From: a virus
Virus record (IMG/VR): IMGVR_UViG_3300025674_000166
Span: 1 to 35,005 of that record
DNA: 35,005 nt
Reading direction: 5' to 3' (one strand)
The notes beneath the pieces were generated by a model that saw only the letters and a list, made by a program, of their open reading frames with translations, was not told the DNA's origin and ran no database searches. The translations under genes were made by a program, and so were the position numbers. Below are positions 1 through 34,965 of this stretch, piece by piece. How positions within the stretch are numbered: position 1 is the stretch's first letter; every line of letters starts with the position of its first letter.

Positions 1-243
1 CTGACGTGGCATCTTACAAATATTAAATCTGTTATCATGGAAATTCTGAATAAGTTTTTCCTGAAACGGATACATATTAAAAGGCACTAGACCATGGTCA
101 AGAGAAACGATCTTGATATAATTTCTAGCGAAATAAACTGGGTCCTCTTTACATTTAAGGAACTCAAGGATTTGTTCCTCTGTAAACTCAATTTGTGTAT
201 TCGCCTTCTTAAGGTTTGGATTACCTAAGTAAACTTCACTCAT
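1..243 (-). CDS. gp17: Terminase large subunit gp17, N-terminal part only
   Basis: This is the first 81 codons of the packaging ATPase/nuclease that drives DNA into the prohead. The ATG is at 241-243 and the frame stays open to the window edge. The visible part reads MSEVYLGNPNLKK..., then a T4 gp17-like segment with PVYFARNYIKI, an aromatic MYPFQEKLIQNF stretch (adenine-binding Q-motif region), and NRFNICKMPRQ. In the family, that last stretch leads directly into the Walker A loop (SGKST type), which lies just outside the window. The gene starts 10 nt after the stop of the 451-aa gene. In T4, genes 16 and 17 overlap; here three genes separate them. The ATPase and nuclease motifs themselves are not visible, so the call rests on this N-terminal segment and on gene order. 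Confidence 0.9.
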   Translation of the reverse strand, partial: MSEVYLGNPNLKKANTQIEFTEEQILEFLKCKEDPVYFARNYIKIVSLDHGLVPFNMYPFQEKLIQNFHDNRFNICKMPRQ

Positions 244-253: not shown

Positions 254-1609
254 CTATCTAGTTTCTCGCCATTGAATAGTATTAAACACATCCGTTGTTG
301 TATTAGTATCTAGGTTGGTCACAATAACGGCAAAAATATTACTATCATTAGAGTCAATATTTTGTGCGATATAAGACCTTCTAGCAGTCGTTGGGTTAAA
401 TGCAACTTGAGCAGATGCTTGTTTACCTGATGGATTATTAGCAGCAATCAAAGATGCCTGTCTCAAATCTCCACCAGTTGTTGTGAAGTTAGTCCCTGCC
501 GTGACATTATACTCAACTGCTGAATCATCATCGGCACTTACCCAACTTCCACCAGTAATATTAGTATTGCTTGGAACTCTCCAAATTTCAATTCTACAAT
601 TTGTAGAATCACTCAAACATTCAATATCAGTCACTCTTACAGTTGTTCTGTTTGGAATTCCTTTAAATGTATCCTTACAACGAATAGCCATAACACATTG
701 TCTTGCAGTTGCACCACCAGCACTGGAAAAAGATATTGGACCATTAAAGGCACCAAACTCAACACCAGTCTCAACATATCCACCCTCACTCATTACAGTG
801 GAACAGATTTGTTCCATTGATGTAATGCCTACGGCAGCTCCAGTATTGGCGACCTCACAACGAATGGGAAGAGATGGGAGTGACCAATATGCGTGTTCTT
901 CAACATTGCCATGATTGAACTCATGAAAATAAACCATCTGCCCACCGATGACAAATCCACAACGAATTCTACCAACACCTAACCACTGAAAGTCTGCTGC
1001 GAATAGATGAGTTTTTGTGAAATCTATATTGATACCAGAAAGAGTTGTTCCGTCTAACTTATCCAGGTTCCAATCGGATTGATTGACAACTGTATCACTG
1101 GCAATTCCTGTGTTGTATGATCGTCTTACAACAGAAACAGTTCCGTCTCCCTCCTGTTGAACAAATACTCCGTTTCTATCGTCAAAATATCCAATCTTCT
1201 TCGTAGTATTTTCTCTTACATCAGTGAAGTTAAAACTGGTCAGCACAAATTGAGACTTACCAGGCATGTAGTGGTGATACATTCTGGACTGGTGAATCAC
1301 CTTATCTGTCGCACCAGTTCCAACAATCAAGGCAATAGATGCTGTATTTGGGTTTACCTCGGTTGTAGATGCTGCACCAACAGTCTTTGTAAGAAGTTCT
1401 ACCTCTTCACCATAAATGTGAGAATAGTCAGCAAGAGTGAAAGTATCAGATACTCTCATTCTACCAAAAGCATCTGATCCACCACTAGTGGGTCCAGAAG
1501 TTATTCCACAGTTTCCAATGTTGCCATATCTGTCGGCACACATGAAAACTTCGAAGAGTGTTCTCTCCTGGTTCAGGTAGTCCTGTTGATTTTTATTCCA
1601 CTGAGCCAT
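254..1609 (-). CDS. Conserved virion structural protein with DAFGRxRVS motif
   Basis: This is a 451-aa protein of a type common in cyanophages and other marine phages; I do not know its exact place in the particle. Near residues 40-60 it has SGGSDAFGRMRVSDTFTL, a signature I associate with this virion-protein family. The middle holds a beta-rich region ending in FHEFNHGN, YWSLPSLPIR and CEVANTG, also typical of the family. The C-terminal third is rich in Ser, Thr and Asn and looks like a beta-structured exposed domain. Its ATG overlaps the stop of the 102-aa gene (TAATG), so the two are probably translationally coupled. It lies directly before gp17, in the inserted cassette between the terminase genes. 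A role as a head-surface or fibre protein is inference; no enzymatic motif was seen. Confidence 0.85.
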   Translation of the reverse strand: MAQWNKNQQDYLNQERTLFEVFMCADRYGNIGNCGITSGPTSGGSDAFGRMRVSDTFTLADYSHIYGEEVELLTKTVGAASTTEVNPNTASIALIVGTGATDKVIHQSRMYHHYMPGKSQFVLTSFNFTDVRENTTKKIGYFDDRNGVFVQQEGDGTVSVVRRSYNTGIASDTVVNQSDWNLDKLDGTTLSGINIDFTKTHLFAADFQWLGVGRIRCGFVIGGQMVYFHEFNHGNVEEHAYWSLPSLPIRCEVANTGAAVGITSMEQICSTVMSEGGYVETGVEFGAFNGPISFSSAGGATARQCVMAIRCKDTFKGIPNRTTVRVTDIECLSDSTNCRIEIWRVPSNTNITGGSWVSADDDSAVEYNVTAGTNFTTTGGDLRQASLIAANNPSGKQASAQVAFNPTTARRSYIAQNIDSNDSNIFAVIVTNLDTNTTTDVFNTIQWRETR

Positions 1610-1917
1610 TAATCACTCCAACTTAATCTTTCTGGTCTATACCTTTGAGAACTTTTGATATTTAAGGAACTTGATGTTGCTGGATAAATGTTGTGAACAA
1701 CCGCTCCAGGATATTCTCCTTGAAGATTTTCTGCAAGTTCATTTTTAGAAGGCATAGAACCTTCAATCTCCATTCTATATATTTTTCCTTCCCAGACCAC
1801 ATCAGCGATATATGATTCGCTTGCTTGTTCTGGTGAAGACCCTCCTACATTGAGAGTTCCATTGAAATCGCCATTGATGGTGATATTTTCTTTTAGAAAC
1901 TGTTTGAAACTTTTCAT
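1609..1917 (-). CDS. Small protein with capsid-targeting-like N-terminus
   Basis: This is a 102-aa protein of unknown function. Its first residues, MKSFKQFLKE, resemble the T4 internal-protein capsid-targeting sequence (MKTYQEFIAE in IPIII). They also end in L-x-E, the cleavage consensus (L/I-x-E) of the T4-type prohead protease gp21. Cleavage after E10 would leave a mature protein of about 92 aa. The body carries VVWEGKIYRMEIEG followed by MPSKNELAENLQGEYPG and VVHNIYPA, which looks like one small alpha/beta domain. The ATG follows the TGA of the 642-aa gene by 1 nt, and the stop overlaps the next start, so all three genes form one translational unit. Packaging inside the head is inference from the N-terminus and position; a scaffold-associated or head protein is the alternative. 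Confidence 0.8.
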   Translation of the reverse strand: MKSFKQFLKENITINGDFNGTLNVGGSSPEQASESYIADVVWEGKIYRMEIEGSMPSKNELAENLQGEYPGAVVHNIYPATSSSLNIKSSQRYRPERLSWSD

Positions 1918-1918: not shown

Positions 1919-3847
1919 TCAGCAATTCCAAGCTCTGAGGGACTTATTGATTCTGCTATCGGGATCGTTAGCAGTTTTCTTTGAGGTAAGTTTTTTCTTC
2001 ATACCTTTCATTCTTGCACAGAATGACTTGCGGCGTTTGTTTCCTTTCTCCTTACTTGGTGCCTTCAAATCAGAACCAGGATTTTCACGCTCATAAGACT
2101 TGCGTCCTTTTTCATTCAAACCTCCTTTAGGATTTTTTCCAGACTTTTTTGTCCAGGCAGCACCCTCAATGATTTCACCTTCTGGTTCGAAGTGTGCTAG
2201 TTGATTATCTTTCTTGGCAGACTTAGCAGATGCTCCCCTTACTGGTGGTACTGGTGGTGCCGTCTCCAGATGTTGTTTCCAAAAATCCATAGACTCTTTA
2301 CGCTTTTTTGGGTTAGAAATTTTAAGATATTCGGTTGGTTGATATCCCCCCTCACCCCTACCACGGGTACTATCATAACCACTTTCGGCAAGTTCTTCTC
2401 TCCAGTTTGAGTATCCTTCCTTCACACAGTTGGGAACCATTTTCTTTCCCTTCTTCTTCATACCCAGTTGCTTATAACCAACCCAACACTTCTCATCAAT
2501 TTTTTGCCCACCTTTAATTGGTTCTGGTTCAATAATATTTACAGTTTCAAACTCAAGTGCTTTAAAGTCCTCTTTCCAGTTTGAAGTATCATACTCTTCG
2601 TTCTTCTTCGACTTTCCGTAGTTAGCAGCACCTTTTTTACGGCACTGAACCAAACGACCTGATGCATATGCAGAAGGCCAAACTTTTGCACTTGCTTTTA
2701 CTTTTTTATAGCAAGCATCTTTCTTACCTTCTTGAAGGGGGTCTTTTGGACCTTCCAGACCAGTCTTGTCAACTTCAAAGTTAAACTTTCTTTTATTTGG
2801 TTTTGGCTCAGTTGCAGATGCTGGAATTTGTTCACCAACTTTATATGCATTATGTGGAATGCCTTCAAAAACTACTTTACCTTCTGGTTCGTAAGAATTG
2901 ATTTGGATTTCATTTCCTTTGATAGTGAATCCAGGTTTGACTTTTTTATTAAGTGCTCTTCTAATTCTTCCAGGAAGTTTTTCTACAAATTCACCAGCTT
3001 TAGGACCAGCCATGACACTGCCCTTGCCAATTTGACCTCCACCATCAGCATATTCTATCAGTTCACCTTCTGGTTCGAAGTGTGCATTTCTAACACTTGC
3101 AGATTTTTTAGGAGTTGATGGTACAACTACTGCCCCTGGTACAATCTTTCTAATTGCATCATCGGGATTTTTGAATTCAGTTCCTCGACCAGTGGGAATA
3201 CCAATTTTTTCTTGTAAGTCCTCTCTCCAGTTAGAATAAGATTCTTGTCTCACGTTTTTCGCCTTCCCTTTTCTGTTTGGATTTGGATCTTCTTTACGCT
3301 TTTTGCGTGCTCTCTTATTTCTTTCTTTCTTACTCATTGCAGCACGGTCATCTGCATCACGGCAATATGGTTTTGTTTTCTGTCCTGGTTGTTTCGCACA
3401 AGGTTTGCCATCATATTTACCTCCAGTTTGTACCCAACCACCACCTTTGAACCAATCGCGGAGTGAATACCCTTTATCTTTGGCAGATTTGCCATCACGC
3501 TTACCCTCACTTACATCACCACTTTCTTCATGCTCATCATCACTCATCAAGTTGCCATTAGGCATTATATGATGACCTTTGGGAATTTTTTTACACTTTT
3601 CATCAGTTTTGCACCAATATTCACCTTCACCACACTTTGATTTACCCTCAGACATATAACCCGCAGCAGCGTCCGTATTGTGCTCGGTGTCGGTAATCTT
3701 TGCTTGTAACCAAGCAGGTAAATTGTCATCATCAGACATTGTAGAGAGAACTTTTTGAACTCTCTTCAAGTTTATGATAGAGTTTCTTACCTGGCTTTTC
3801 GCCATCGAAACTTCATGGTCCTTTTCTTTAGAACCCATATTAGACAC
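1919..3847 (-). CDS. Mosaic basic protein with repeated YSNWREEL and FEPEG modules
   Basis: This is a 642-aa Lys-rich protein without recognisable catalytic residues. In order it holds: an N-terminal helix ending in NLPAWLQAKIT (about 25-65); a Cys-containing YWCKTDEKCKKIPKG (77-91); a segment with KPCAKQPGQ...KPYCRDADDRAAM (148-171), resembling a marine-virus DUF (DUF5872-like, from memory); SYSNWREDLQE (203-213); AHFEPEGELIE (255-265); a YEPEGK variant (319-324); DACYKKVKASAKVWPSAYAS (377-396); TSNWKEDF (421-428); CWVGYKQLGMKKKGKKM (454-470); YSNWREELAE (479-488); AHFEPEGEIIE (551-561); and a C-terminal GLNEKGRKSY...RRKSFCARM domain (DUF6321-like, from memory). The frame opens with GTG at 3847, which an AAGGA at 3861-3865 serves better than the ATG at 3838 (MGSKEKD). 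It follows gp16 by 9 nt. Several modules end in L/I-x-E, so processing by the prohead protease is possible. Confidence 0.85.
   Translation of the reverse strand: MSNMGSKEKDHEVSMAKSQVRNSIINLKRVQKVLSTMSDDDNLPAWLQAKITDTEHNTDAAAGYMSEGKSKCGEGEYWCKTDEKCKKIPKGHHIMPNGNLMSDDEHEESGDVSEGKRDGKSAKDKGYSLRDWFKGGGWVQTGGKYDGKPCAKQPGQKTKPYCRDADDRAAMSKKERNKRARKKRKEDPNPNRKGKAKNVRQESYSNWREDLQEKIGIPTGRGTEFKNPDDAIRKIVPGAVVVPSTPKKSASVRNAHFEPEGELIEYADGGGQIGKGSVMAGPKAGEFVEKLPGRIRRALNKKVKPGFTIKGNEIQINSYEPEGKVVFEGIPHNAYKVGEQIPASATEPKPNKRKFNFEVDKTGLEGPKDPLQEGKKDACYKKVKASAKVWPSAYASGRLVQCRKKGAANYGKSKKNEEYDTSNWKEDFKALEFETVNIIEPEPIKGGQKIDEKCWVGYKQLGMKKKGKKMVPNCVKEGYSNWREELAESGYDSTRGRGEGGYQPTEYLKISNPKKRKESMDFWKQHLETAPPVPPVRGASAKSAKKDNQLAHFEPEGEIIEGAAWTKKSGKNPKGGLNEKGRKSYERENPGSDLKAPSKEKGNKRRKSFCARMKGMKKKLTSKKTANDPDSRINKSLRAWNC
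2174..2197 (-). repeat. FEPEG repeat, copy 3 (24 bp identical to 3062-3085)
   Basis: These 24 bases are identical to 3062-3085 inside the same 642-aa gene and encode the AHFEPEGE core of the module. A third, diverged copy (13 bp shared, encoding YEPEGK) lies near 2880-2895. Identity at third codon positions suggests recent duplication or gene conversion. Confidence 0.85.
3062..3085 (-). repeat. FEPEG repeat, copy 1 (24 bp identical to 2174-2197)
   Basis: This is the partner of the copy at 2174-2197. It encodes AHFEPEGE at about residues 255-262 of the 642-aa protein and is followed by LIE, a match to the L/I-x-E prohead-protease consensus. Confidence 0.85.
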
Positions 3848-3856: not shown

Positions 3857-4273
3857 CTATTCCTTATTATTTAGAAAACCTTGCTTTAGCATTTTTTGAA
3901 GATCTGTTGTTGAACCGACAAAAACTGCATTATTAGTAACCGTATTTGGACCTTTCTTGTCAGATTCTTCTTCAACATCTTTGAGTTTCTTCTGCAAATC
4001 AATCAATTTGTCTGTCGTATCAGCGACACTCTTAATTAATTGACCAGCAACTTCATATGCTCTAGGACTTCCACCTTCTCCAGCAAGTTCCATAATTCCA
4101 TTGATTGCTTCTTGACCCTTTTCAATCAATGAATATAAATTTGCCCTCGTATATTCATAATCCTTAGATATATCAGTCTTTTTTTCTGGTTTTTGTATTT
4201 TACCAGGTTTATTAGTTTCTACGATGCTACTATCGATGTCCAAAGCATCATCAATACTATCAAAATTTTGCAT
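3857..4273 (-). CDS. gp16: Terminase small subunit gp16
   Basis: This is the DNA-recognition subunit of the packaging motor and partner of gp17. The protein is 138 aa from ATG (T4 gp16 is about 164). It has an acidic N-terminus (MQNFDSIDDALDID), a basic linker with KPGKIQKPEKK, then two long helices (YEYTRANLYSLIEKGQEAI and YEVAGQLIKSVADTTDKL running into a Lys/Glu-rich coiled coil). This is the helical core expected of the oligomerising domain. The C-terminus ends in FVGSTTDLQKMLKQGF, a typical gp16 tail. The frame extends upstream to a TTG at 4282, but the ATG at 4273 gives the family-like start and lies 5 nt past the TGA of gp15. No good Shine-Dalgarno is visible, so coupling to gp15 is likely. 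Confidence 0.92.
   Translation of the reverse strand: MQNFDSIDDALDIDSSIVETNKPGKIQKPEKKTDISKDYEYTRANLYSLIEKGQEAINGIMELAGEGGSPRAYEVAGQLIKSVADTTDKLIDLQKKLKDVEEESDKKGPNTVTNNAVFVGSTTDLQKMLKQGFLNNKE
3868..3875 (-). promoter_or_regulatory. Candidate late promoter TCTAAATA before the 642-aa gene
   Basis: The minus strand reads TCTAAATAATAAGGA, one or two changes from the T4 late element TATAAATA. It sits in the last codons of gp16, about 20 nt before the GTG of the 642-aa gene, with AAGGA at 3861-3865 between them. It could give the cassette its own late transcript. The match is short and the DNA is AT-rich. Confidence 0.4.
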
Positions 4274-4278
4274 GAGAA

Positions 4279-5079
4279 TCAAATGTCTTGTTGACGAGTT
4301 GGGCTATAATTCTTACCATCCGAGAAATCTAACCATTCCTCAGTAAATCCAAAATCATCTCCTGGTTCTGCATCAATTGGATCGGGTACTGCAGTGTATC
4401 TAACCTCCCTTGTGGCAGTTTGAGTATCTGTATTTGTATACATATCAACTTGAACCTTACGAATGAGACCCTCAGTACTGTCAGCGACGGGACCAAACAG
4501 ATATGTTTTCGCAGTAAATCTGAGAGTATAAATTAATGCTCTTCTTGTACTAAAGTCTCCCTCATAATCATCTTGGAATGAAATGCTGTCAAGAACCATT
4601 GGAATATCTCTCTTTTCACCAATGGAATCTAGTAAATCAATCGTCAGATTAAATGAAGGTTGGAAAAAAGGTAGAATTTGTTCAATGATTTGTAGCGCAT
4701 CATCATTCAGTTTTGTTAAAATACTAAGTTCAAAACCAACATTATATGGTACAGGCATATAAACTTTTTTTATATTTCCACCATCATCACATGCCTTGAA
4801 GGTCTGAGTTACACTACTCTTTCTAGTTGGATCATAATTTAAAGAAACCATTTCAAATGACATTCTAGGCAATGTAATCTGAACAGCTTTGTTTAAATTT
4901 TCTTGCTGTTCAAGTCTAGCTAAAAACTTTTGAGTTGGTCCATATGCAATAGGAACCCTAATATCACTAAATGCAGTTCCATCTTGTTCAGTATGGCGTA
5001 TATTGATACCATTAAAAAGAGTACCAAAAGCTATGATAGTCTTCCTAATAATCTGATGATAGTAATAAGTTCCAAGCAT
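4279..5079 (-). CDS. gp15: Tail sheath stabiliser / tail completion protein gp15
   Basis: This 266-aa protein is close to T4 gp15 (272 aa). It caps the distal end of the tail tube and sheath and forms the joint to the neck. The N-terminus (MLGTYYYHQIIRKTIIAFGT, then LFNGINIRH) and the segment VPIAYGPTQKFLARLEQQ are characteristic of the family. The central VPYNVGFELSILTKLNDDALQIIEQILPFF and the beta-rich second half, with IPMVLDSISFQDDY, also fit. The ATG overlaps the stop of gp14 (TAATG) and the gene ends just before gp16, matching the T4 order 13-14-15-16. A GATAAATA at 5158-5165, inside gp14, might provide extra late transcription. Confidence 0.95.
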   Translation of the reverse strand: MLGTYYYHQIIRKTIIAFGTLFNGINIRHTEQDGTAFSDIRVPIAYGPTQKFLARLEQQENLNKAVQITLPRMSFEMVSLNYDPTRKSSVTQTFKACDDGGNIKKVYMPVPYNVGFELSILTKLNDDALQIIEQILPFFQPSFNLTIDLLDSIGEKRDIPMVLDSISFQDDYEGDFSTRRALIYTLRFTAKTYLFGPVADSTEGLIRKVQVDMYTNTDTQTATREVRYTAVPDPIDAEPGDDFGFTEEWLDFSDGKNYSPTRQQDI

Positions 5080-6485
5080 TAATAGTTACCAAAAGGATTT
5101 GATTCTGTGAAATCTAACAGTGCATCTGCCTCAAGTTCGATTTCGTCATTCTGAGCGTATTTATCATATAAGTCATCTATAACTACAGAACGAAGACTAA
5201 ATTCTGCACCAGAAGTCTGTCCAACAATAGTTTCACCAGGATAGAATCCAGTTATTGTTCCACCTATTCCTAAGTTGGAAATCTCAAGAATATAATTATC
5301 CAAGTTCCAATCCTTAACTCTTGCTGTAGTATAAGATCTGCTTCCTTGTACAACTTCATTGAATAAGTATGTTCCTATTCCAAGAATAACATCTGGGTCT
5401 GCTACAGTCACTGTAGGAATTCCAACGTATTCTGAACCAGAGTTTGTAATGTATATAGAATTTACATAAGAATTAGTTCCATCATATGCCATAGATGCAA
5501 TACCAGTGGCAACATCTGAACCAGTCGCTGGGTCTGAAACTGTTATTAGAGGTGCTGTTCCATATCCAGTTCCTCCATCATTAACAACAAATGCAACAAC
5601 TCCTTGAGAACCACTAGAATTGATGGAGCATGTCGCTGCTGCTCCACTTCCCCCTCCACCAACAAATGTGATGGTAGGAATTGTGGTATATCCAATACCA
5701 GCAAAAGTCAGATATACATGTTCAATGGAAGTAACTCCACCTTTAGTCGTTGTAATTGCAACTGCTCTAGCATCATTATTGGGTATTCCCGTTGGTGATG
5801 GTGTAATTGAAACTAGAGGATCTGACGTAAATCCATATCCATCATCATTCAGGTAAATTTCATCAACATATCCATTTCCGAGAACTGCCGTGACATCTGC
5901 AGTTCTTCCAACACCAATCAAATTCAATGTTGCAATATATCCAATATCTTCAACTAGAGTGTCAATTTCTTCAATATCAGTATCAATGATTTCGTCTTCA
6001 TATTCGAAGAGTTCACACTGCAACTCATAAACATATGTTTTACCTAACTGGTAAAATGGTTTTTCATGCTCAACAAATTTAATTTCAAATAACCTATTTC
6101 CCAATGGGAAATAAATCAAATCTCCTTCACTTGGTCTTGTTGCAACCTCTATCTGAGCATCTCCAACTAAAAATGGTGATATAAACTCTTCATATCTCTC
6201 CTTAGAGATAATTAAAGTTACGTCATCTCTCAAACTCATTCCAAATTTTGTGAGAATATCACCTGCACCAGTATACCCATCATATGTACCAACATATGCC
6301 TCTATTGAAAAGTTTTCATCAAATTTTGATGCTTGAACTTCTTCAATAATTGTCTTCTTATTGACAAACTTTCTTGGGATGTATGTAATCTCAACACCAT
6401 GCATCCTCAACTGTTCATTGATTAAATCTTGTATTAATCTTTGTTCAGTATTAGAACCGTGTAGAAAATAGGGATTAAGTGCCAT
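5079..6485 (-). CDS. gp14: Neck protein gp14 with an inserted repeat domain
   Basis: gp14 forms the head-tail connector neck with gp13. The first 190 residues match the family: MALNPYFLHGSNTEQRLIQD, VEITYIPRKFVNKKTIIEE, and FGMSLRDDVTLIISKERYEE. The protein is 468 aa, against about 256 in T4. The extra length is a beta-rich insertion at roughly residues 204-364 with four GxGY-type units (DDGYGFTSDPLVSI, FAGIGYTTIPTITF, DGGTGYGTAPLITV, NSGSEYVGIPTVTV). A short segment (FNEVVQGSRSYTTARVKDW...ETIVGQTSGA) follows, before the acidic C-terminus ESNPFGNY. The start overlaps the gp13 stop. The insertion probably makes a surface-exposed extension of the neck; this is inference. Confidence 0.93.
   Translation of the reverse strand: MALNPYFLHGSNTEQRLIQDLINEQLRMHGVEITYIPRKFVNKKTIIEEVQASKFDENFSIEAYVGTYDGYTGAGDILTKFGMSLRDDVTLIISKERYEEFISPFLVGDAQIEVATRPSEGDLIYFPLGNRLFEIKFVEHEKPFYQLGKTYVYELQCELFEYEDEIIDTDIEEIDTLVEDIGYIATLNLIGVGRTADVTAVLGNGYVDEIYLNDDGYGFTSDPLVSITPSPTGIPNNDARAVAITTTKGGVTSIEHVYLTFAGIGYTTIPTITFVGGGGSGAAATCSINSSGSQGVVAFVVNDGGTGYGTAPLITVSDPATGSDVATGIASMAYDGTNSYVNSIYITNSGSEYVGIPTVTVADPDVILGIGTYLFNEVVQGSRSYTTARVKDWNLDNYILEISNLGIGGTITGFYPGETIVGQTSGAEFSLRSVVIDDLYDKYAQNDEIELEADALLDFTESNPFGNY
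5158..5165 (-). promoter_or_regulatory. Possible late promoter GATAAATA upstream of gp15
   Basis: The minus strand reads GATAAATACG about 80 nt before the gp15 ATG, inside the gp14 coding sequence. It shares the ATAAATA core with the other candidates in this cluster. Chance matches are likely in DNA this AT-rich. Confidence 0.2.
5395..5875 (-). repeat. GxGY beta-repeat block inserted in gp14
   Basis: Four protein-level repeats of about 35-55 residues share the pattern (S/G)GxGYxxxPxVxI, often followed by GSGA. They lie at residues 204-364 of gp14 and explain most of its excess length. Similar units occur in gp8, the 2406-aa protein and the 4272-aa protein of this window. Confidence 0.75.
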
Positions 6486-7566: not shown

Positions 7567-10500
7567 TTATGACAATGCCAATGCTCTGTAGTTCTTCAGT
7601 TTAACAACATTACCCTCATTGGGTGAGGAGAATACAATTTTGATTGAGAATCCATTAAATTGTGGGAGATTATCAACGCTGAATTGATATTCATGATATG
7701 TTAACGAATCACCAGTTTCAACATAAGCATCTGGAAGTCCAGAATTATTTACGGGATTGATAACTGAATCTCCATATCCATCACCGTCAGTATCTATAAG
7801 ATTTTTATATCCTGGGAACAATTCATAATATTGTGTTATCTCTGTAGAATCGGCATTATAGAGTTTATATAAAACTCTGAAGTCTGCAGAATCTGTCTTA
7901 TTAGCATCAACAAGAACTTTCAAACTAGTTGCTGGTTTTTCTAAGAAAATTGGTTTGGTGACCATTGCCGAAGCATGTGGATCATCAGTACCATTTTTAA
8001 ATGAAGTTCCTTTAGTATAGTCTGATACTGGTTTATTGATTCTATTTCTACCTAGGATAAAGGTTGCATTTTTAATATCGAGTGCTGGAGAAACGTTTTC
8101 ATTCTCAGTTGACATATTAACTCTGAGAGTCAATGATTTATTTGAAGGTAAATCAGTTAAATATTGATTTTCATTAACTTGAGATGCAACCATTCTTGGT
8201 GTTTCAAAAAATACTGTATCGTTCAATGTTGATGGCGTATACCCAGAATCTAGGAATGATTTTTCGGAACCACCAGCACTTGTTCCTGTAATGGTTCTAA
8301 CATTGCATTTAATAGCAGTATCACCTGGAGTAATTGCATTAAACAATGGTTGAATAGAATTGAATTGTCTATTTTGAGAAACTTTAACATCATTTCCACC
8401 AACTGGAGACTCTTCATCAAAATTCAGTCCAGGTCTTGATCCTCTATCAAATTCAATATTATAAGAATCCATCGAATTTTGATTGGAAAGATTGGAAATT
8501 GTATGTTCGGTGTTAATCCTCATTAAGGATACTCCGTTTATCTCATATGGTGTAATCTTTGAACCAGAGTCATGTGTATATGCCGAAGTTCCATTCAATC
8601 CTCTTCCAGAAATCGTAATTGTCCCACTACCAATACTATTATACAATACAACTTCAGATTCAATTAAAGCATAACCAGCACTAGTGGTGATACCTTCAAA
8701 TCTTGCAAAAGGTGTTGTATTTGCAATTGAAATTACGGTATCGTTTAATCCAACATCTTGAGATAGAGTGGATGATTCTCTAGAAGGTGCTACGTCAACA
8801 ATTTTAATCTTATTGTTTTTTGAATGATGTGAATGATTATACTGATTTATTTTAAATACATTCCCTTCATAGAGTGGAGATAGTGTCGTAGAATCTGCTG
8901 ATACAGTTGCTGTTGTTGTTTCTCTTGTGGCACCATCATAATATACTAATGTTTGACCAGAATCAAATTTAGTATCAGAAACGGCAGTTAAGTATAATGT
9001 ATCGATATCAACAGAACCAAGATTTGTTATGCCAATAATAGCTCCAGTTCCCTTTTGACTTCCTGTTATGCTACTAGTAACAATCCCAAGTCTTTCACCA
9101 GAAATATATCCTTTACCAAATGAAGTTGCGGTTATTGAAACAATTTTATTTGATACTACTGAGATTGTAGCAGATGCTCCAGAACCATTCCCATCCAAAG
9201 ATATCAAATTCACACCAGTATGTGTTCCATTCGAATAACCTATACCTGGAGAAGTTATTGATAAACCAGCACCAGATAAAGATTTACCTGCTGCTTCAAT
9301 GATTCCTGTAATTGATGTTGGATTTGCAGGTGTTTGTCCAATTTTAACTCCAGGTGTAAAAGTATTAATTCCTGTTGTATTTGAAACTTCGAGAGATACC
9401 TTTCTAGGATAAGTTGAAATTGGATTATTAATCAAATTATCAGCATTATTTCCACCAGGTAAAATTGGTGTGTTATAGAAGGATACCGTACCACTACTGA
9501 CAAACTTTGCCTTATACAACTTGAATGTCATGTCCTGATACTGACTTGGTGTCCAAATAGTACCATTTTGAGACTTGAACAAACTACCACCAATATATTG
9601 CTTAGCAACAATAACATTTTCAACATCTGGTAATGATGAAGTATCCAATGTTTTTTGACCCATTGTGGCGACATACATCTCATATAAATCTGATGCGGGT
9701 GCCAGATAAACCAAAGCATACTCAGTATTTGGTTCCAAGTATATTGGAGATGGGAATTTAACATTTGTTGCTACTGGTTTATTGGGATCTTCTGGAATAT
9801 TAATATTAGATGGGTTTAATTCGACGGTAGCATAATCTTGTACAAGAAGATTTGTTGGAGTTCCAAGTTCTACAGTTCTAAGTTCTACAAATACTTTAGC
9901 ATTATCATCTTTGGATGCAAAGAATGCGTCAACTGAAGTCAAGTATGCCCCATCAGAATCTGTGGTAAAAGTCTGAGCTAAAGGATCTCTATGTACCGCT
10001 TGAGTTTGTACTTTTACGCTAGTAGGTTTATCTGCTGGTTTTGGTGGATTTCTAAGTTGCACCTTAGTTGTTTCTTGGAGGGTAATAACTCCAGAACCAC
10101 TAAATGTTCCTTCAGAATTACTTGCAAATTTTGAAGATCCTGGAAGAACTACAGTTCCTGGTGGAACAGCAGTAATTTTGAATGTTTTAGTTCCAGTCTT
10201 TACAAGTTTTGTTGGTTTTGGATTTGCTAATGGGTCTCTAAAATACCATGCACCAATTATATCTCCAAAATTGTCAGATATCAATTCAGATTTTGTTATT
10301 TGAGCAACCGCACTGCTAGTTTTTCCAACTACTTTACATCCCTCAGTAATATACCCAAACTGCTCATTATCAGTCAAAGAAATTTTCTTTACATCAAAGT
10401 TAATTAATGTAGATGTTGAAGAATAATTCTCTCCAGGAGGAGTTGCACCTTTATCGTAAATATTTACCGAATATGTTTCATATGCTACTTCTGAAGTATT

Positions 10501-13500
10501 ACTGTTTGAACCAAACTTATGATTTGGTGCTTTCAAACTACAAAGTGCAACTTTATCTCCAGCAGTGTCAAAAATTTCAACTTCTTCACCAACACTGAAA
10601 GTGCCGCTTGTCATTTCAATTTGATTTACTTTTGGAATAATATCAACTTTAACCTTATCCAAAACATGATAATGTTTCGTAAATGGTTTTAGTCCATTTG
10701 CTGCAAAGTATACGTTTCTTTCCCTCATGTAGGGGTCAACAGATGTAGTTATCTTAACACTTTCGACAAAATCAATTTCTGGAGACTTAGTTACAAGTTC
10801 ACTACCATAATTTGTTGCAGTTGTTGTCTCAGTGTATAACTTTTTACCTGATTGCCATCTCCTTTGCCTTGAAGTAGTATTTGAAGTCTGCCTCCAATAT
10901 GCTCCCGTACTTTCCTTTTTAATATTTTCTTCGTATACTGTTCTTGCCCAGTTGTCTGATGGTGGGTCTAATTTAATTCCACCAACAAATGCAATGACAT
11001 TGAAAGGATTTACATTTTCAACTCCAGTTGCATGAGGTTGATTTATCATTTCAACCTCAGTATAGTCTAATGTTAAAATATCACCAGTTTTTTTAATATT
11101 TGGATCTAAGAGTTTTAAATTAGCATTTAAATCTGCAGTTGTTTTATCGATAGAAGGATCTAATGCCAGTTCTGCAGCAATTGACCAGAAATCAATAGAT
11201 GACCTTAAACATCCTTCTTGACTATCAATATCATTGTTATTTTCTGCATCATTTGTATTCAATATTGTCTTATCTGAGAAGTTTGATACTATAAATCCAG
11301 ACTTAAACTTGTTCAGTCCAGTAGCATCCTTGACAACCAAAGATTTTGTGTCAACTTCCAATAGTGAAAGTGCAGTTGTCTCTTCAAGATTTTCGACTCT
11401 CTCAAATATATTACCAATGTCCCTCATTGTATATCTTTGATTGTCAATTAATCTAATTTTGGAGTCGGATGGATTGTACAGGTATGCTGGATGTCTAATT
11501 TGTGCAAGTTCCATCGTTCCATCTGGAAGTGCAGCAAATTGTGGGTTTTCGGAAGGGGTTCCTTGACTTACCTTTATATCACCAATAGAGTTTATAGAAA
11601 CTCTATCAAATCTGCCAAGATAATAATCATATGAAACCTGACATGCAGTATTTGGGGTTAAAGTAAATCCATATACAGATTCAAATGTCTTCTGTGAGAA
11701 TGCAAATGGTGATCCAGATGTACTTGTAAATGGTGCAACTCTTGGTCTGAAATCTAAAGTATCACTTATTCTTAATCCATCAATACTTGGAATATCATAT
11801 GTAAATCTATCCGCTGGATAAGAATTTACTGTGAATATATCACCAGTGCTTCCTGAAGTTTGTTCAACTTTGTAGTAGTTGAATATGATCAGTAATTCTT
11901 TTTTGGGGGATGCTAATCCAGAAGTTCTTACTAATTTTGAATAATCACAATATTGTTTTTTATGTCCCTTATCCAGTTTGTAATTTGAGGTTAAATTAAC
12001 ATAACTTCCTGGAATAATTTCTGTTGGTACTGCCTGAATATTAGACTCTTGGAAAACTACCGTTTCACCAGGAATAAATTGTACTGGACTCAATCTAACA
12101 TATTCCACTTCAGTTGGTGAAGTTGCAGAAATCAATTGTGCAGTTGCCTTACTTGTTTTGCCTACAATTTTTTCCCCAGGGATTGAATTTACGTCTAAAC
12201 TATATCCTGTGATAAACTTAAACTTATCTAAAACTGGAGTAGTAGAATTAGTGGACTCATATACTGCTACAACATCAACAACATCTGGAACATTGAGAGA
12301 AATCTCATTGTCTTCAACTCTAAGACCGTATTGAGTACTCTTTGTTAATGTAGAAGTATCTTTCTGAGACTTATTAACAGTCAACTTATTACTTCTAGAG
12401 TATATTTTAGACTTAGATGTTATGTCCGTCTTTCTTAATGTAACTGTTACATTAACGTTTGTTTGTGAAGCAGTCAAACCACTAATATTGACTGTTTTAT
12501 AATCCGATGTGAATGTGACCTGATCCGATGTTAAATCTTCAATCGTTCCATTACTATATGTAACAGAATACAATTCTGCATCATATGGTTCAAAGAATGC
12601 AGAAACTAATCCAGAAGAAGAATCGAGAACATCTGAAATTGTAATTGAGAGTTCTCCATTAGAATTTGTGGTATTTCCTAATGATTGTCTAGTAATAGTT
12701 AAAGATGCTTTAGATAAATCAATACTAGCGACATCACGCTTTGCTAATGGTGAATATAAAGCCCTTTTATCATAATTAAGAACTTCTGGATATCCAAGTT
12801 TGAAAGTAACAATTGCAGTAGAAGTTGGTAGAGTTCCTTTATTAACACCACTAATAGATGTTGTAGGTACAATTTGCATTATAGTTGAATCTGCATTAAC
12901 AGAATCTATTTTTGCATATGTCAGTGGATCTGTACTGCCTGCAGCTGGATCTTGAAACTTTATTATTGTTCCAATAGAAAATCCATTTTCTTTTGTGAAA
13001 AATTTTCCAGAAGATGTCACTTCTCCACTAGAAATTGTTATAGTATCTGTTGCAGAAAATCCTCCTGGAATAAAATCATATAGTATTGTATCTGCACCAA
13101 AGTCTGTTGGATATGAAGCATCAATTCCATTGGAATCTTGGAATACTGATTTTACATCTTCTATTGAATATACTATAACATCGGTAATATTTTTTGTTGT
13201 TGCTGGATCTTCATTAAAAATTATACTTTCACCTTTCAGGAATTTACCTGATGTGTTAATAATAGAGAGATTTACATTGGCATTAATATTATCAAGGTAT
13301 CCAGTTGCCCCACTAGTCAATCCTCTAACATATGAACCAATAGGTTCAGAAACTGTTGCAGTTGATTCTAATTCTGTATATGTTTGGATGTCATAAAGGT
13401 ATAAATCCCAGGAAGATGCTGCCCCAGAATAACTACCATCAGTTAATCCAAACCAATAAACTCTAGCACTACCTATTTTATTTCCAGTACCAATGGTTGG

Positions 13501-14787
13501 AATTGATGGATTTCTTCTTTCATCATATAAATCGATTGTGTTGTCGGACAAATTTATGACAGGAGCACCATAAACATTGTTGACTCTAATAAGACTTCCA
13601 GTATCGAATGGTATTAATGCTGAAGGTACATTGTTGGTTGTTCTTGGTTTTGGTACATCTACTGATGAATTGAATACCTGGACATCAAATCCTTTAACGT
13701 ATGCAGTCCCTGGAGAGACTGTAATGCTCATCAAATCATCTGAGGGTACATTCCCATTGTCAGTTAATTCATCGGCGCTATATAAACCATTGGGGGTTCT
13801 GCTGATATTATCATTTAAACTATTCTCTACAGAAATTTCAAAATTATCTAAGGCATAATTTCCAGACTCGTCAAAAGTTCTTTTTGCCAAATATTCTTTG
13901 ATATTAGAATATACACTCTTATCCTGAACCTTAAGAATTTTTCCGTTAACAATTCTTAAAAGTTCTATAAAGTTTATATCATTATTATCTGTTAATAATT
14001 TTTTAGATAGTAATGTATCAATTTTAAATCTATCTGCTCCAGGAGCTGCGTAATTTGTAAATCCCTTCGCGTTATCATTTAAACTATTATCTTCAGCACT
14101 AGTGATAATAGATTCATTAACAGACAGACCAATTCTATATGATACATTATTAGAATATGGATCTAATATCAAAGTATCTTTAGAAACTCTAGTAAAAGTT
14201 CCTCTAATAAAGTATACTCCTTCTGCAACATGTACAGCAGATCCAATATGTGATGCATCTGCCGAAACTAGAGTTATAACAGAATCTCCTGAATTTAAAG
14301 TTGTGTTTCCATAAGTCAAAGAAGATTCTAAAAGAAGAATCTCATTATCAGGTAATGCAACACTTTCATTTGATGAATCTGAAGATATATATTTTACAAA
14401 TAGAGTAATATCATCTACTTCACCACTACTTGGTAGAAGATATCCTCTTACTGATACTAAAATATCTGAGTTTTGACCTCTAAGTTGTATTTTATTCTCA
14501 ATTATGGCATCCAAATATAATTTGATGTTGAGACCCAAGTGCAAGTCATTTACCTTTACACTTGTATAATTTGGATCAAAGGTTACACCACCAGGTATAA
14601 CCATAGAACCTTCTTTGAATACATGAGACCCAAATTGCGCAACTTGGTCTTGCAGTATAGACTGAAGATTTGTTAGTTCTCTCGCCTGAATAGGAAATCC
14701 AGGTTTAAACAAAACCTTGTAGAAATTCTTTGCCCTATCAAAATCATCATGATATGGGCTTACGTTTAAGTTAGTTTTTTGTGGCAT
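7567..14787 (-). CDS. Giant DUF4815-type baseplate-periphery / fibre-like protein
   Basis: This 2406-aa structural protein occupies the position of T4 gp9-gp12 and wac. The N-terminal 80 residues (NLNVSPYHDDFDRAKNFYKV, FPIQARELTNLQSILQDQV, FKEGSMVIPGG) match the DUF4815 type, a likely particle-anchoring domain. At about 1595-1720 there is a DPLAQTFTTDSDGAYLTSVD...VFVELR...PNTEYALVYLAP domain seen in many marine phage tail proteins. GxGY units follow at about 1850-1900 (SPGIGYSNG, FGKGYISGERLG), then a RGLNGTSAYTHDSGSKI module near 2060-2100. Near residue 2330 is DTDGDGYGDS, a calcium-loop-like motif. The C-terminus (YHEYQFSVDNLPQFNGFSIK) looks like a jelly-roll ending. Attachment of fibres or receptor contact is inferred from position. 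It starts 3 nt after the gp8 stop. Confidence 0.9.
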   Translation of the reverse strand: MPQKTNLNVSPYHDDFDRAKNFYKVLFKPGFPIQARELTNLQSILQDQVAQFGSHVFKEGSMVIPGGVTFDPNYTSVKVNDLHLGLNIKLYLDAIIENKIQLRGQNSDILVSVRGYLLPSSGEVDDITLFVKYISSDSSNESVALPDNEILLLESSLTYGNTTLNSGDSVITLVSADASHIGSAVHVAEGVYFIRGTFTRVSKDTLILDPYSNNVSYRIGLSVNESIITSAEDNSLNDNAKGFTNYAAPGADRFKIDTLLSKKLLTDNNDINFIELLRIVNGKILKVQDKSVYSNIKEYLAKRTFDESGNYALDNFEISVENSLNDNISRTPNGLYSADELTDNGNVPSDDLMSITVSPGTAYVKGFDVQVFNSSVDVPKPRTTNNVPSALIPFDTGSLIRVNNVYGAPVINLSDNTIDLYDERRNPSIPTIGTGNKIGSARVYWFGLTDGSYSGAASSWDLYLYDIQTYTELESTATVSEPIGSYVRGLTSGATGYLDNINANVNLSIINTSGKFLKGESIIFNEDPATTKNITDVIVYSIEDVKSVFQDSNGIDASYPTDFGADTILYDFIPGGFSATDTITISSGEVTSSGKFFTKENGFSIGTIIKFQDPAAGSTDPLTYAKIDSVNADSTIMQIVPTTSISGVNKGTLPTSTAIVTFKLGYPEVLNYDKRALYSPLAKRDVASIDLSKASLTITRQSLGNTTNSNGELSITISDVLDSSSGLVSAFFEPYDAELYSVTYSNGTIEDLTSDQVTFTSDYKTVNISGLTASQTNVNVTVTLRKTDITSKSKIYSRSNKLTVNKSQKDTSTLTKSTQYGLRVEDNEISLNVPDVVDVVAVYESTNSTTPVLDKFKFITGYSLDVNSIPGEKIVGKTSKATAQLISATSPTEVEYVRLSPVQFIPGETVVFQESNIQAVPTEIIPGSYVNLTSNYKLDKGHKKQYCDYSKLVRTSGLASPKKELLIIFNYYKVEQTSGSTGDIFTVNSYPADRFTYDIPSIDGLRISDTLDFRPRVAPFTSTSGSPFAFSQKTFESVYGFTLTPNTACQVSYDYYLGRFDRVSINSIGDIKVSQGTPSENPQFAALPDGTMELAQIRHPAYLYNPSDSKIRLIDNQRYTMRDIGNIFERVENLEETTALSLLEVDTKSLVVKDATGLNKFKSGFIVSNFSDKTILNTNDAENNNDIDSQEGCLRSSIDFWSIAAELALDPSIDKTTADLNANLKLLDPNIKKTGDILTLDYTEVEMINQPHATGVENVNPFNVIAFVGGIKLDPPSDNWARTVYEENIKKESTGAYWRQTSNTTSRQRRWQSGKKLYTETTTATNYGSELVTKSPEIDFVESVKITTSVDPYMRERNVYFAANGLKPFTKHYHVLDKVKVDIIPKVNQIEMTSGTFSVGEEVEIFDTAGDKVALCSLKAPNHKFGSNSNTSEVAYETYSVNIYDKGATPPGENYSSTSTLINFDVKKISLTDNEQFGYITEGCKVVGKTSSAVAQITKSELISDNFGDIIGAWYFRDPLANPKPTKLVKTGTKTFKITAVPPGTVVLPGSSKFASNSEGTFSGSGVITLQETTKVQLRNPPKPADKPTSVKVQTQAVHRDPLAQTFTTDSDGAYLTSVDAFFASKDDNAKVFVELRTVELGTPTNLLVQDYATVELNPSNINIPEDPNKPVATNVKFPSPIYLEPNTEYALVYLAPASDLYEMYVATMGQKTLDTSSLPDVENVIVAKQYIGGSLFKSQNGTIWTPSQYQDMTFKLYKAKFVSSGTVSFYNTPILPGGNNADNLINNPISTYPRKVSLEVSNTTGINTFTPGVKIGQTPANPTSITGIIEAAGKSLSGAGLSITSPGIGYSNGTHTGVNLISLDGNGSGASATISVVSNKIVSITATSFGKGYISGERLGIVTSSITGSQKGTGAIIGITNLGSVDIDTLYLTAVSDTKFDSGQTLVYYDGATRETTTATVSADSTTLSPLYEGNVFKINQYNHSHHSKNNKIKIVDVAPSRESSTLSQDVGLNDTVISIANTTPFARFEGITTSAGYALIESEVVLYNSIGSGTITISGRGLNGTSAYTHDSGSKITPYEINGVSLMRINTEHTISNLSNQNSMDSYNIEFDRGSRPGLNFDEESPVGGNDVKVSQNRQFNSIQPLFNAITPGDTAIKCNVRTITGTSAGGSEKSFLDSGYTPSTLNDTVFFETPRMVASQVNENQYLTDLPSNKSLTLRVNMSTENENVSPALDIKNATFILGRNRINKPVSDYTKGTSFKNGTDDPHASAMVTKPIFLEKPATSLKVLVDANKTDSADFRVLYKLYNADSTEITQYYELFPGYKNLIDTDGDGYGDSVINPVNNSGLPDAYVETGDSLTYHEYQFSVDNLPQFNGFSIKIVFSSPNEGNVVKLKNYRALALS

Positions 14788-16370: not shown

Positions 16371-19300
16371 TTAACTAATTGCTATTCCACCAGCATTTAA
16401 GAATCCATATCCACGTCTTTGTATTGTTGGGAAAGTTGACAATCCACTATCAACAGTAAGTCCAGTAACTGCAATAGAAACAGGATTTAATCTGTTTGAA
16501 TATTGATATAATCTACCCCAAGACATTTTACCAAGATAATCTCCAGTTATTCCAGTACCAACGATTGATACAACTGATGCTTCACTTGCTGCAGAAATAT
16601 TGCAAGTGATATCGCATATTGGACCAACATTGAATTTATCATTTACAACATATACATTATCAAAGAATGAAGTTCCAATACCAACAACATCAGATTCTGA
16701 AGAATTAATTGATATCACACCATCACCATGGGTAGTGTCATTAATTAATACTGGATATCCAATCTGTAAATCATTGGCATCAGAAATATCTGCCCTAAAG
16801 AAGAAGTTTAATGCCATTGGATTTCCACCTGTTCCTGCACTGGTAGTAATTCCAGTGATGATTCCTGAGAATCCTTGATATAACTCAATTCCATTAAATT
16901 GTTCAAACTTAAAGTCTGGAGATTTGATTAATACACTTGGTGGAGCACTTGGTGTATATCCAGCACCAACATTACCAATAGTAGCACCTATTACAATACC
17001 GTTAGAAATATTCAGAGTCGCTGTTGCCGTCGTTGTTCCAATTCCAACATCATTTCTAAATCCTGGATGTGCTATAGAAATAGTTTCATCACCAATGTAT
17101 CCAGAACCAGATTGTGTAATATCAATAGACTGTATTGTTCCAGCAGCACTGACAACTGCAGTTGCAGCTGCTGCAATGATTGGTGTATTGTCAACAACTA
17201 AAGCACTAACATTAGAAATTACCTCATTGAAAATATCTTCTTCGATGAAGAAATGTCTTGCCTCATCTACAAATATACTTGTAGATGAAGAATCTATACT
17301 TCCAATAACCTTTGCCGTTGGGAATATTCTTGGCTCATAAATTGGTCTAGCCTTTGATACATTTTCATTATTAATTACCAAATCGGATTTTTGCTTAATC
17401 CATTCAAGAGCTCTTTCGTTTACGTCATCTATACCAAAACCAGTATAGATATCAGTTTCTATAGTGTCTGATGTTGATAAATCAACTACAGTTCTATTTC
17501 TTTCTTGAGATTTAGTTCCTAATATTGTAGGATTTTTCTTGATGAATACTCCGTCACCTTTTTTAATAGTTTCTCTAATGTCTGATTGATCAATATCAAC
17601 ATTTCTATCGCCAACATAGAAAAATACATCTACTTTATCATCAACATCTGGTGCTCTATCAAAATTAATTGAGGTTCCACCTTCATAACGATATGCAACT
17701 CCAGGAGACTGAATAACACCATTAACAAATATGATTAATATTGAATCCAAATCAATTAGGGATGAGAGTTCACTCTCTTCTTCTTTTTCAAAACTTATAA
17801 GTTCGCCATTGTAGAATAATGGGAATCTTGTTCTGCTTCCATCCTGCAGATTCTTAAAACTATCAATATAATCAAGTTCTCCAAATTGCCAACCAGCAAA
17901 GAAATCATTGAATATTTCAACGACTTCTAATTCAAATTCAGAAATTGGTTCGGACAATCTAGCATCTGTGACCAATCCAACAACCGTAAACTTATCACCG
18001 ACATTGAATGAATGCCCTGGTCTTGCTATTGTAAAACCATTAACCTCATACAAAGAACCAGGTGCCACAGTTCTTTGAGATGGTAATGTTGAACTATCAA
18101 TCGCATTGGTAACAATTCCAACATAAGTTTCAATTGCAGATGCAACATTTGCACAAGAATTGGGATCTGTATTAAATCCAGTTTGTGGATCTGCAGTAAT
18201 ACTCAAGTCAAACACTTGGATTTTATTTGAGTATCCACCAATCGTTATTTGAACGTTGGTCATTGCTTCAATTGCCATACTCTTTGCTTCTTCATAGGCA
18301 TATACAGATTCTGCCTCTTCTCCAGCGACATGAGCACCTGTAATATAAAGATTTGCAGCATCATATACGAAGTCATTTCCACCATATCTCAAATTATATG
18401 CAATTGATTCTAATACATCTACAATATCATCAATGCAGTTTTGATTTCCATTAGGAATTGTGAATGATGGGAACGCTGCAAGCATTCTACCAACTGCAAC
18501 TTCTGCAATTAGTTCTTTATTTGCCTCAATTAAATTGGCAGCATCTGCAAATCTGTCATTAAAAATTGGATTACTATTTTGACCAACAGACAAATTTAAT
18601 AGTAAATTGCTTCCAGTATCAGTTGTAGTTCCAATTCCAAGTCTCGATTTTCCAACAATTTGCATATTTTCGTAGATTGGATTTGGAATATTGAGTATTG
18701 GATTCAAATATCCAGTTCCTGGTTGATCAATTGTAAACGTGAGTGTTCCTCCCGCACCAACAGTGGCAGATATTTCTGCACCAGAACCTGCATATGATGC
18801 ATCAGTAACTGCAACAGAAACTGGACCTCTATATCCAGAACCATTATTTAAATTATCTAAGTACTCATATGCAGTTCCAAATCCAACATAAGTGTGTGGG
18901 ATTGTAGAAACTCCAACGTTAATATCAAAGTTATTGTTAGAATACTTACTTTCAACAGAGAAGGTAAATCCTGATGGACTAGATCCGTCTGGGAAAATAG
19001 TTGTAGTAACACCAGCGTGTGGTGCAGCACAAGAAAATTCAAGTCCTTCTAGTTGAATTAAATCATTCTCTTCAAATGTGTTATTATCAACAGTGGTTAT
19101 ATTTAAAATACCTGAAACATTATCATAAGATGCTGTTTGGATTGCATAATCTCTATTTCTTGATGGTGAAGTAAGAATATCAATAATAGATCCAGATGAA
19201 TCTGTAATGAGACCAACTATAGATCCTGTCAATTGGGCATATCCCAGTCCAGTTGTGGATCCGAGAGAAACAATTAAACCACCTCTTGGTAATTGATTTT

Positions 19301-31933: not shown

Positions 31934-32083
31934 TTACTTACCCTGACCCCTATATTTCTTACGAGCAGGATTACGAGACGTAGCTGCGTATTTCGTACCT
32001 CCCCCTGCTCCTTGACGAGTCTTCTTCGGTGGTCCAGGATTATAAGAAGTCTTGCCGTATGCACCAGTCTTTGCTTTTGCCAT
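31934..32083 (-). CDS. Tiny basic protein, 49 aa
   Basis: This gene starts at the ATG at 32083 and reads MAKAKTGAYGKTSYNPGPP, then KKTRQGAGGGTKYAATSRNP and ARKKYRGQGK before TAA. It is strongly basic (Lys/Arg rich), Gly-rich and without an acidic patch, so nucleic-acid or head contact is conceivable, but no family was recognised. It starts 2 nt after the stop of the 52-aa gene and ends 7 nt before a terminator. That context argues that it is a real gene at the end of a small operon. Longer overlapping frames at 31807-32064 (minus) and 31835-32089 (plus) look like shadows. Confidence 0.75.
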   Translation of the reverse strand: MAKAKTGAYGKTSYNPGPPKKTRQGAGGGTKYAATSRNPARKKYRGQGK

Positions 32084-32085
32084 AA

Positions 32086-32244
32086 TTAATACTTAATAAT
32101 CTTAGTTTCAAGTTTGTTTGGATTTGGAGAGCCTGTCTGATAATACTCTATCGACAGGTTCTCCATTATATCAAAGTACTCTTCCTCGGTCAAGTTCTTA
32201 TAAAGTACTTTACCATCTAAAATAATTTGATAATTTTCTGTCAT
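32086..32244 (-). CDS. Small conserved-looking protein, 52 aa
   Basis: The frame from the ATG at 32244 reads MTENYQIILDGKVLYKNLTE, then EEYFDIMENLSIEYYQTGSP and NPNKLETKIIKY. The pattern (short beta strand, helix with EEYFDIMENL, then YQTGSP and a final strand) looks like a compact beta-alpha-beta domain, and I associate this type with T4-like cyanophages. It follows the glycosyltransferase gene by 15 nt and precedes the 49-aa gene by 2 nt, so the three probably share one transcript. Function is unknown. Confidence 0.75.
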   Translation of the reverse strand: MTENYQIILDGKVLYKNLTEEEYFDIMENLSIEYYQTGSPNPNKLETKIIKY

Positions 32245-32259
32245 CGTCTGCCAGATAAA

Positions 32260-33036: not shown

Positions 33037-33059
33037 AATAGAGTGTAATTACATCATTG

Positions 33060-33088
33060 ATCATACAGTATTATCTATGTGAAGTCAA
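33060..33088 (-). promoter_or_regulatory. Sigma70-type promoter for the glycosyltransferase
   Basis: The minus strand has TTGACT (33083-33088), a 17-bp spacer and TATGAT (33060-33065). A start near 33053 would leave a leader of about 17 nt before the ATG at 33036. This is the best host-type promoter in the window. It overlaps no coding region, lying between the AbrB-like gene and the glycosyltransferase. Confidence 0.7.
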
Positions 33089-33099
33089 GGTCTACGCTC

Positions 33100-33282
33100 T
33101 CAGTCTTTACCGACCTCGGTAATTACAATCGCGTCTCCATCGACTTCCATATTCACTTCGGTCCCCTCATACCATCCGTATTCGTTTAATACCCACTCGG
33201 GCAAATTAATAAAATACTCCCCAGTAATTGGATCGACCTCTACAGTCGTAAAATTTTCCTGCGGATTTTTTTGCATTTCCAT
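33100..33282 (-). CDS. AbrB/MazE-like (SpoVT-AbrB fold) small DNA-binding protein
   Basis: This 60-aa protein has a swapped-hairpin AbrB-type pattern: GEYFINLPEWVLNEYGWYEG (residues 21-40) followed by TEVNMEVDGDAIVITEV. In AbrB and MazE the equivalent positions read G-x-I-x-I-P-x-x-I-x-x-x-L-G-x-x-x-G-D-x-V. AAGGAA lies 9 nt before the ATG, a good ribosome-binding site. No toxin gene is adjacent, so an antitoxin role is not indicated. Short AbrB-like proteins occur in many cyanophages. Upstream is a noncoding region with tandem and inverted repeats, which could be its own operator by analogy with AbrB/MazE autoregulation. That last point is inference. Confidence 0.78.
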   Translation of the reverse strand: MEMQKNPQENFTTVEVDPITGEYFINLPEWVLNEYGWYEGTEVNMEVDGDAIVITEVGKD

Positions 33283-33306
33283 GTTTTCGTTCCTTGATTT
33301 TATATA

Positions 33307-33375: not shown

Positions 33376-33408
33376 GCTTATGGGGACCCATGGGTTTTAT
33401 ATACATAA

Positions 33409-33423: not shown

Positions 33424-33465
33424 CAACTGTGTATAACGAACGAACGCACAATGATATAAGATAAG

Positions 33466-33494: not shown

Positions 33495-33500
33495 ACCTAT

Positions 33501-34959: not shown

Positions 34960-34965
34960 GCTGTC

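Follow-up and report, generated by a model that had tools for sequence, protein, structure and literature searches.

Head-directed proteins of T4 and the locus between the terminase genes

In phage T4 the internal protein IPIII is targeted to the head through its first ten residues, with positions 4 and 7 needed for targeting and positions 8 and 10 for processing, and the protease gp21 cuts after L/I-x-E; with Asp at position 10, IPIII is still targeted but no longer processed (PMC9026906). The T4 prohead core proteins gp22 and gp67 are cut by gp21 at L/I-x-E into several fragments, and in the phiKZ-like phages and SPN3US head-interior proteins are cut after a short Glu-ending motif by a gp21-related protease (PMC9026906). 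The polyvalent proteins, including Dar of phage P1, are mosaic multidomain proteins that are packaged in the virion and in some cases processed (Iyer et al., 2017; PMC5512222). In the literature searched we found no paper describing capsid targeting in cyanophages.

The window analyzed here is a 35-kb IMG/VR virus record (35,005 nucleotides) from a T4-like marine cyanophage, and all features of the locus described below lie on its minus strand. The gene order is gp13, gp14, gp15, gp16, P0001, a 102-aa gene, the gene for a 451-aa virion structural protein and the start of gp17. P0001 is a multi-module basic protein of 642 aa (3847..1919, GTG start). Upstream of it lies gp16, the terminase small subunit (TerS; 3857..4282; Pfam DNA_Packaging and phrog_445). 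Two further genes, the 102-aa gene (1609..1917; phrog_1742) and the 451-aa gene (254..1609; phrog_1645), separate it from gp17, the terminase large subunit (TerL), of which the 5′ end is present (1..243; compared by eye with the S-CREM2 TerL) and the rest is lost at the contig end. The original prediction had thus rightly placed the gene between the two terminase genes.

P0001 belongs to phrog_727, the cyanophage T4-GC119 family (E 8e-117), which is found in the same position between gp16 and gp17 in S-SM2, S-SKS1 and S-SCSM1. Relatives were found in 487 phage records, nearly throughout from cyanophages. The protein has a pI of 9.6 and is, as previously described, rich in Lys (15.6%). The only Pfam match is DUF6321, with 82.5 bits against a gathering cut-off of 28.5, and a search of NCBIfam gave no match.

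Elsewhere in the window, the neck protein gp14 (5079-6485) has a long extension beyond residue 180, which resembles repeats in tail-fibre, baseplate and other virion protein families (phrog_701, 5342, and 2885). Two huge proteins of 2406 and 4272 aa (7567-14787 and 16371-29189) are encoded in the tail/baseplate gene region. The last part of the window (32000-35005) has a raised G+C content (0.42 over 32-34 kb) and short ORFs beside phage structural genes, and is possibly a variable or early-gene region.

Folded modules on a disordered chain

Homologue conservation and AlphaFold2 agree in dividing P0001 into small folded modules, at residues ∼5-67, 68-105, 115-202, 374-415, 453-476, and 562-642, that are joined by disordered linkers. 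As the confidence of the whole AlphaFold2 model is low (mean pLDDT 55, pTM 0.26), the local picture alone was used. Segments with pLDDT below 50 are notably residues 106-119, 239-374, 414-450, and 532-577.

Module 1 (residues 5-67; 3647..3835) is a helical hairpin (HEVSMA...LPAW) that ends in YMSE67 and has a pLDDT of ∼79-88 across residues 11-60. It is followed by Module 2 (residues 68-105; 3533..3646), a beta module here called YWC, which has three Cys and starts with G directly after MSE67. The VSE114 junction (3506..3514; pLDDT below 50), followed by GKRDGKS, lies ahead of the Lys/Arg-rich Module 3 or DWF module (residues 115-202; 3242..3505; SLRDWFKGGGW...C...C). The long stretch behind this module contains the first YSNWR motif copy, YSNWREDLQE213 (3209..3238), the sequence FEPEGELIE265 (3053..3079), which is weakly conserved there, and a YEPEG copy at residues 319-323 (2879..2893).

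The next junction is LQE373 (2729..2737), followed by GKKDAC, ahead of Module 4 or CYKKV (residues 374-415; 2603..2728; CYKKVKASAKVWPSAYASGRLVQC). The second motif copy, TSNWKEDF (2564..2587), is of an F-type without L-x-E at the motif. Module 5 or CW (residues 453-476; 2420..2491), a beta hairpin with the sequence CWVGYKQLGMKKKGKKMVPNC, is preceded by the IDE452 junction (2492..2500) with KCW behind it and is followed by the third motif copy, YSNWREELAE488 (2384..2413). Finally, the FEPEGEIIE561 junction (2165..2191), in which E561 is at least 90% conserved, lies ahead of Module 6, the basic DUF6321 domain with two Cys (PF19846; residues 562-642; 1922..2164). In S-SKS1 the homologue (L002, 6013-7340) is annotated as two genes, of which the second consists of SDWRNELDE, then GAAW, and DUF6321 alone; either a true gene split or a frameshift may lie behind this.

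AlphaFold2 places E114, E373, and E561 within stretches of pLDDT below 50, and E452 and E488 at the edges of such stretches. Each of Modules 2 to 6 has two or three cysteines. The predicted fragments with Modules 3, 4, 5, and 6 have a pI of 9.2-10.5, while the first two predicted fragments are acidic (pI 5.6 and 5.2). Folded by itself, DUF6321 reached a mean pLDDT of 80. No convincing PDB relatives of P0001 were found by sequence, and comparing either the whole model or DUF6321 with solved structures by fold gave nothing convincing.

The repeats noticed earlier were recovered at the same places, with SNW[RK]E at residues 205, 422, and 480 and [FY]EPEG at residues 257, 319, and 553 of the minus-strand ORF. 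They also exceed what is expected by chance, as the best two self-repeats score 60 and 57 (BLOSUM62, ungapped) compared with maxima of 33-49 in 20 shuffles. FEPEG is represented by 12 non-redundant instances in total.

Candidate cleavage sites at the module starts

The original prediction was that P0001 is cut into several pieces after L/I-x-E, namely at E213, E265, E488, and E561, and all four glutamates are located as claimed. The plain number of L/I-x-E in the protein is above the shuffled expectation (8 versus 4.19 ± 1.87), but with a marginal P value of 0.047 the count alone gives weak support. In homologues the exact L/I-x-E is seldom kept (8/27 at E213, 0/16 at E265, 4/49 at E440, and 8/59 at E488), and this site-by-site conservation at first spoke against the cleavage idea. 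The junctions viewed module by module reversed that.

We searched for [LIVM]xE at most 15 residues ahead of each module in non-redundant sets and compared the counts with composition-matched shuffles. The motif is present ahead of DUF6321 in 33/42 cases (shuffled 13.4), ahead of CYKKV in 47/57 (shuffled 15.3), ahead of CW in 90/101 (shuffled 32.1), and ahead of DWF in 32/33 (shuffled 7.1), whereas the YWC module has two non-redundant instances; the P values of these comparisons are indicative only, since sequences within the sets share ancestry. With the Glu held fixed, L, I, V, or M occupies P3 at the main junction positions in 71% (25/35), 89% (47/53), 94% (16/17), 73% (16/22), and 88% (14/16) of sequences, compared with 20.9% at the 8950 Glu found elsewhere in these proteins. 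The remaining junction positions have lower shares (38-71%).

Seen in this way, [LIVM]xE is kept in the homologues of P0001 in 38/56 cases at E373, 45/64 at E452, and 51/64 at E561, and in 11/26 at E67 and 28/64 at E114. It is not conserved at E265 (2/16) or E440 (4/49). From the site list first proposed E213, E488, and E561 thus stay plausible, E265 drops out, and E67, E114, E373, and E452 are to be added. The sites LQE213, LQE373, IDE452, LAE488, and IIE561 are all of the gp21 type (L/I-x-E). P3 is M at E67 and V at E114, which goes beyond the L/I published for T4; judged by the sequence pattern, both are likely to be extra cut sites. E579 is conserved in 63/73 homologues but lies within DUF6321, and its conservation is probably structural.

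The YSNWR motif follows a widespread consensus, KE[SG][FY]S[ND]WRx[DE]LxE. Among 128 non-redundant instances, 105 are L-type, in which the acidic residue is followed by L or, in rare cases, by M or V, and 23 are F-type; copies 1 and 3 of P0001 are L-type and copy 2 is F-type. An L/I-x-E starting at +4 to +13 accompanies 98 of the 105 L-type instances (shuffled 33 ± 4.4) and is found exactly at the motif in 72 (shuffled 16), whereas L-x-E is found at the motif in 0/23 F-type instances. The spacing at the L-type motifs mostly drifts by 0-3 residues. Since L-x-E is retained despite the drifting distance, a cleavage site is favored over a rigid docking motif. An aromatic residue stands six positions ahead of the glutamate in both the YSNWR and the capsid-targeting motif, and it is our guess that YSNWR replaces an N-terminal targeting signal.

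Capsid-targeting tags, virion proteins and known systems

A short N-terminal tag, MKxFxxF[LI]xE, matches the T4 capsid-targeting sequence (CTS) that is removed by gp21. No N-terminal CTS was found on P0001, which starts with MSNMGSKEKDHEVSMAK, but one is present on the 102-aa next gene of the window (MKSFKQFLKE; 1888..1917) and on S-SZBM1_192, a syntenic gene consisting of a CTS and DUF6321. The pattern MKTFxxF[LF]xE opens ORFs of at least 60 aa in 111 of the 126 IMG/VR matches listed, compared with 14 of the 120 matches listed for a control pattern with Lys at position 10. In tag-independent loci with N-termini of the form M[KRNQ]x[FY]xx[FY] (n = 96), position 8 is L/I in 71/96 and position 10 is E in 80/96, in line with the determinants of the T4 CTS (PMC9026906).

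Modules of the P0001 type are also found directly behind the tag in IMG/VR loci: DUF6321 in L182, L151, L146, and L187, CW in L173 and L206, DWF in L203 and L196, YWC in L190 and, by eye, a Module 1-like unit in L152. In L182 and L151 the CTS Glu10 aligns with E561 of P0001. Dedicated scans found the tag with a DUF6321 start on 28 contigs (12 distinct proteins parsed) and the tag with CW on at least 120 contigs (105 distinct proteins parsed, 21 of which have DUF6321 too). The distance between Glu10 and DUF6321 was set by the search pattern and is therefore no evidence. The CW scan let the distance vary within a range, and the values at which it peaks, 3 and 1 residues, are common at internal junctions as well.

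The same tag (MKTFxxF[LF]xE) is found in IMG/VR loci L094-L213 on many unrelated proteins, including NMNAT-like proteins, P-loop kinases and many unknowns, and a scan for it could catalogue T4-like phage head cargo. The C-terminal third of SSZBM1_194 (L701), a 707-aa basic protein, has an internal TYREFIAE, followed by G, that is near-identical to the T4 IPIII tag.

Related proteins have been detected in virions. The gap between TerS and TerL in S-CREM2 contains gp136 and gp137, both detected by mass spectrometry, the latter with four unique peptides and 4.1% coverage (PMC10665884). The C-terminal end of gp137 is a DUF6321-type domain, and gp160 (DWF, CW, and CYKKV modules) and gp155 (YSWREELSE) are on the virion list as well. 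So are 6/6 clearly tagged S-CREM2 proteins, comprising a SAM hydrolase, a Cas9-like protein, gp13, an APH-like kinase, gp136, and a cytidylyltransferase, and the CTS could explain their entry into the virion. A looser tag motif is found in 7/52 virion proteins versus 4/167 other proteins of this phage (Fisher P = 0.0045). The tagged set (L085-L087) is gp6, gp12, gp13, gp14, gp136, and gp154, two of which are small proteins.

The S-SCSM1 record gives a virion protein label to the homologue SSCSM1_29 and to SSCSM1_92, which bears the motif. We take these labels as approximate because 48 proteins are labelled in the record versus 45 in the paper; tag enrichment was not significant in this phage (P = 0.31-0.43), which has too few CTS proteins. 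SSZBM1_191, 192, and 194, from the same gap in S-SZBM1, are absent from its mass spectrometry list of 30 proteins. Taken with the modules behind T4-type tags, the S-CREM2 proteins gp137, gp155, and gp160 and the S-SCSM1 labels give good support to the predicted head entry, and we consider it likely that P0001 enters the head.

How the protein behaves inside the head can be read in more than one way. It might stay uncleaved and be present in the virion as an intact chain, with YSNWRxDLxE and [LIVM]xE acting as short helices for docking to the shell or the scaffold. AlphaFold2 does predict a helix at residues 207-214, the YSNWR core persists where L-x-E is lost in the F-type, and cleavage is inferred rather than directly observed. 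Yet a rigid docking motif would have no need of an L-x-E that is kept while its spacing drifts, and the same modules start where a CTS of the type removed in T4 ends; we regard an intact docking protein as unlikely.

A role at the DNA level, with the junctions as recombination linkers at whose short shared sequences modules are shuffled and the motif without a role in the protein, would fit the strongly mosaic module order among relatives and the position of the gp16-gp17 region among the gene-variability hot spots of cyanophages (PMC3037559). However, linkers that are otherwise unrelated share a residue class at P3 and a Glu at P1, and many synonymous differences separate the two YSNWRE copies, so that this seems most improbable. 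We see equally slight prospects for a DNA-binding or packaging accessory that works beside the terminases in the infected cell and reaches the virion by carry-over. The TerS-TerL synteny, the basic Cys modules and the sparse detection of gp137 would agree with it, but the virion lists of two phages and the modules on CTS-tagged proteins speak against it.

We therefore favor P0001 as a head-interior polyprotein that is probably cut by gp21 at its module starts, and cutting at the module junctions is itself probable from sequence comparison. The chain, in which six folded modules are strung along mostly disordered sequence, would enter the prohead core; five of the modules have two or three Cys and four are clearly basic. 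There a T4-type gp21 would probably cut behind [LIVM]-x-E where a module begins (E67, E114, E373, E452, and E561) and also after the YSNWRx[DE]LxE motifs (E213 and E488). Several mostly basic proteins of 4-17 kDa would thereby be set free in the maturing head, much as T4 gp21 frees the internal proteins from their capsid-targeting sequences. The proposed cutting into pieces finds comparative backing in [LIVM]-x-E at nearly all module starts and in L/I-x-E at, or displaced by 0-3 residues from, almost all L-type YSNWR cores; the cleavage of P0001, the enzyme responsible and what becomes of the pieces are our inference. A gp21-type protease is annotated in S-CREM2, S-SCSM1, and S-SZBM1, while none was found on the 35-kb record, a genome fragment. 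The presence of gp21 on 10/13 CTS-bearing contigs of at least 100 kb is uninformative, since 8/12 control contigs have it too.

It is an evenly balanced question whether T4-like phages of marine waters have a single portable code, made up of a T4-type N-terminal tag and related [LIVM]xE junctions inside mosaic chains, that loads and releases head cargo for delivery at infection. This cargo might, with about the same chance of being right or wrong, comprise the Cys modules, NMNAT, SAM hydrolase, kinase, and Cas9-like nuclease, with polyproteins providing several factors per chain. If so, the virion cargo of these abundant phages could be predicted from sequence, with head-entering unknown proteins and their cut points recognizable by a short tag and a junction rule. 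The T4 capsid-targeting system would extend to cyanophages, with a polyprotein form added, and the presence in virions of NMNAT, SAM hydrolase, the Cas9-like protein and similar enzymes would have a testable explanation.

Among known systems, P0001 resembles T4 IPI, IPII, and IPIII as a protein carried in the head, and the IPIII determinants at positions 4, 7, 8, and 10 (PMC9026906) are matched by MKxFxxF[LI]xE on relatives of P0001 and on the next gene. Unlike these proteins, P0001 is multi-module, has no N-terminal CTS and has its predicted cleavages at internal junctions. Family searches gave no similarity to the T4 internal proteins, and since the N-terminal tag is lacking it cannot be classified as one of them. 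The predicted multiple cutting at L/I-x-E-type sites is shared with gp22 and gp67, but gp22 serves as a scaffold and most of its fragments leave, whereas conserved Cys modules are a feature of P0001, and relatives have a gp22-type scaffold annotated separately. Polyvalent proteins bear domains for enzymatic functions or conflict, and many bring a peptidase of their own; Pfam and NCBIfam showed nothing of this kind in P0001. The cuts in phiKZ-like phages and SPN3US mostly remove propeptides, while P0001 is a string of separate modules. By sequence, P0001 is a direct member of DUF6321 (PF19846) and phrog_727, two families listed without an assigned function. By analogy, the best explanation is that it works like the T4 internal proteins and the core substrates of gp21.
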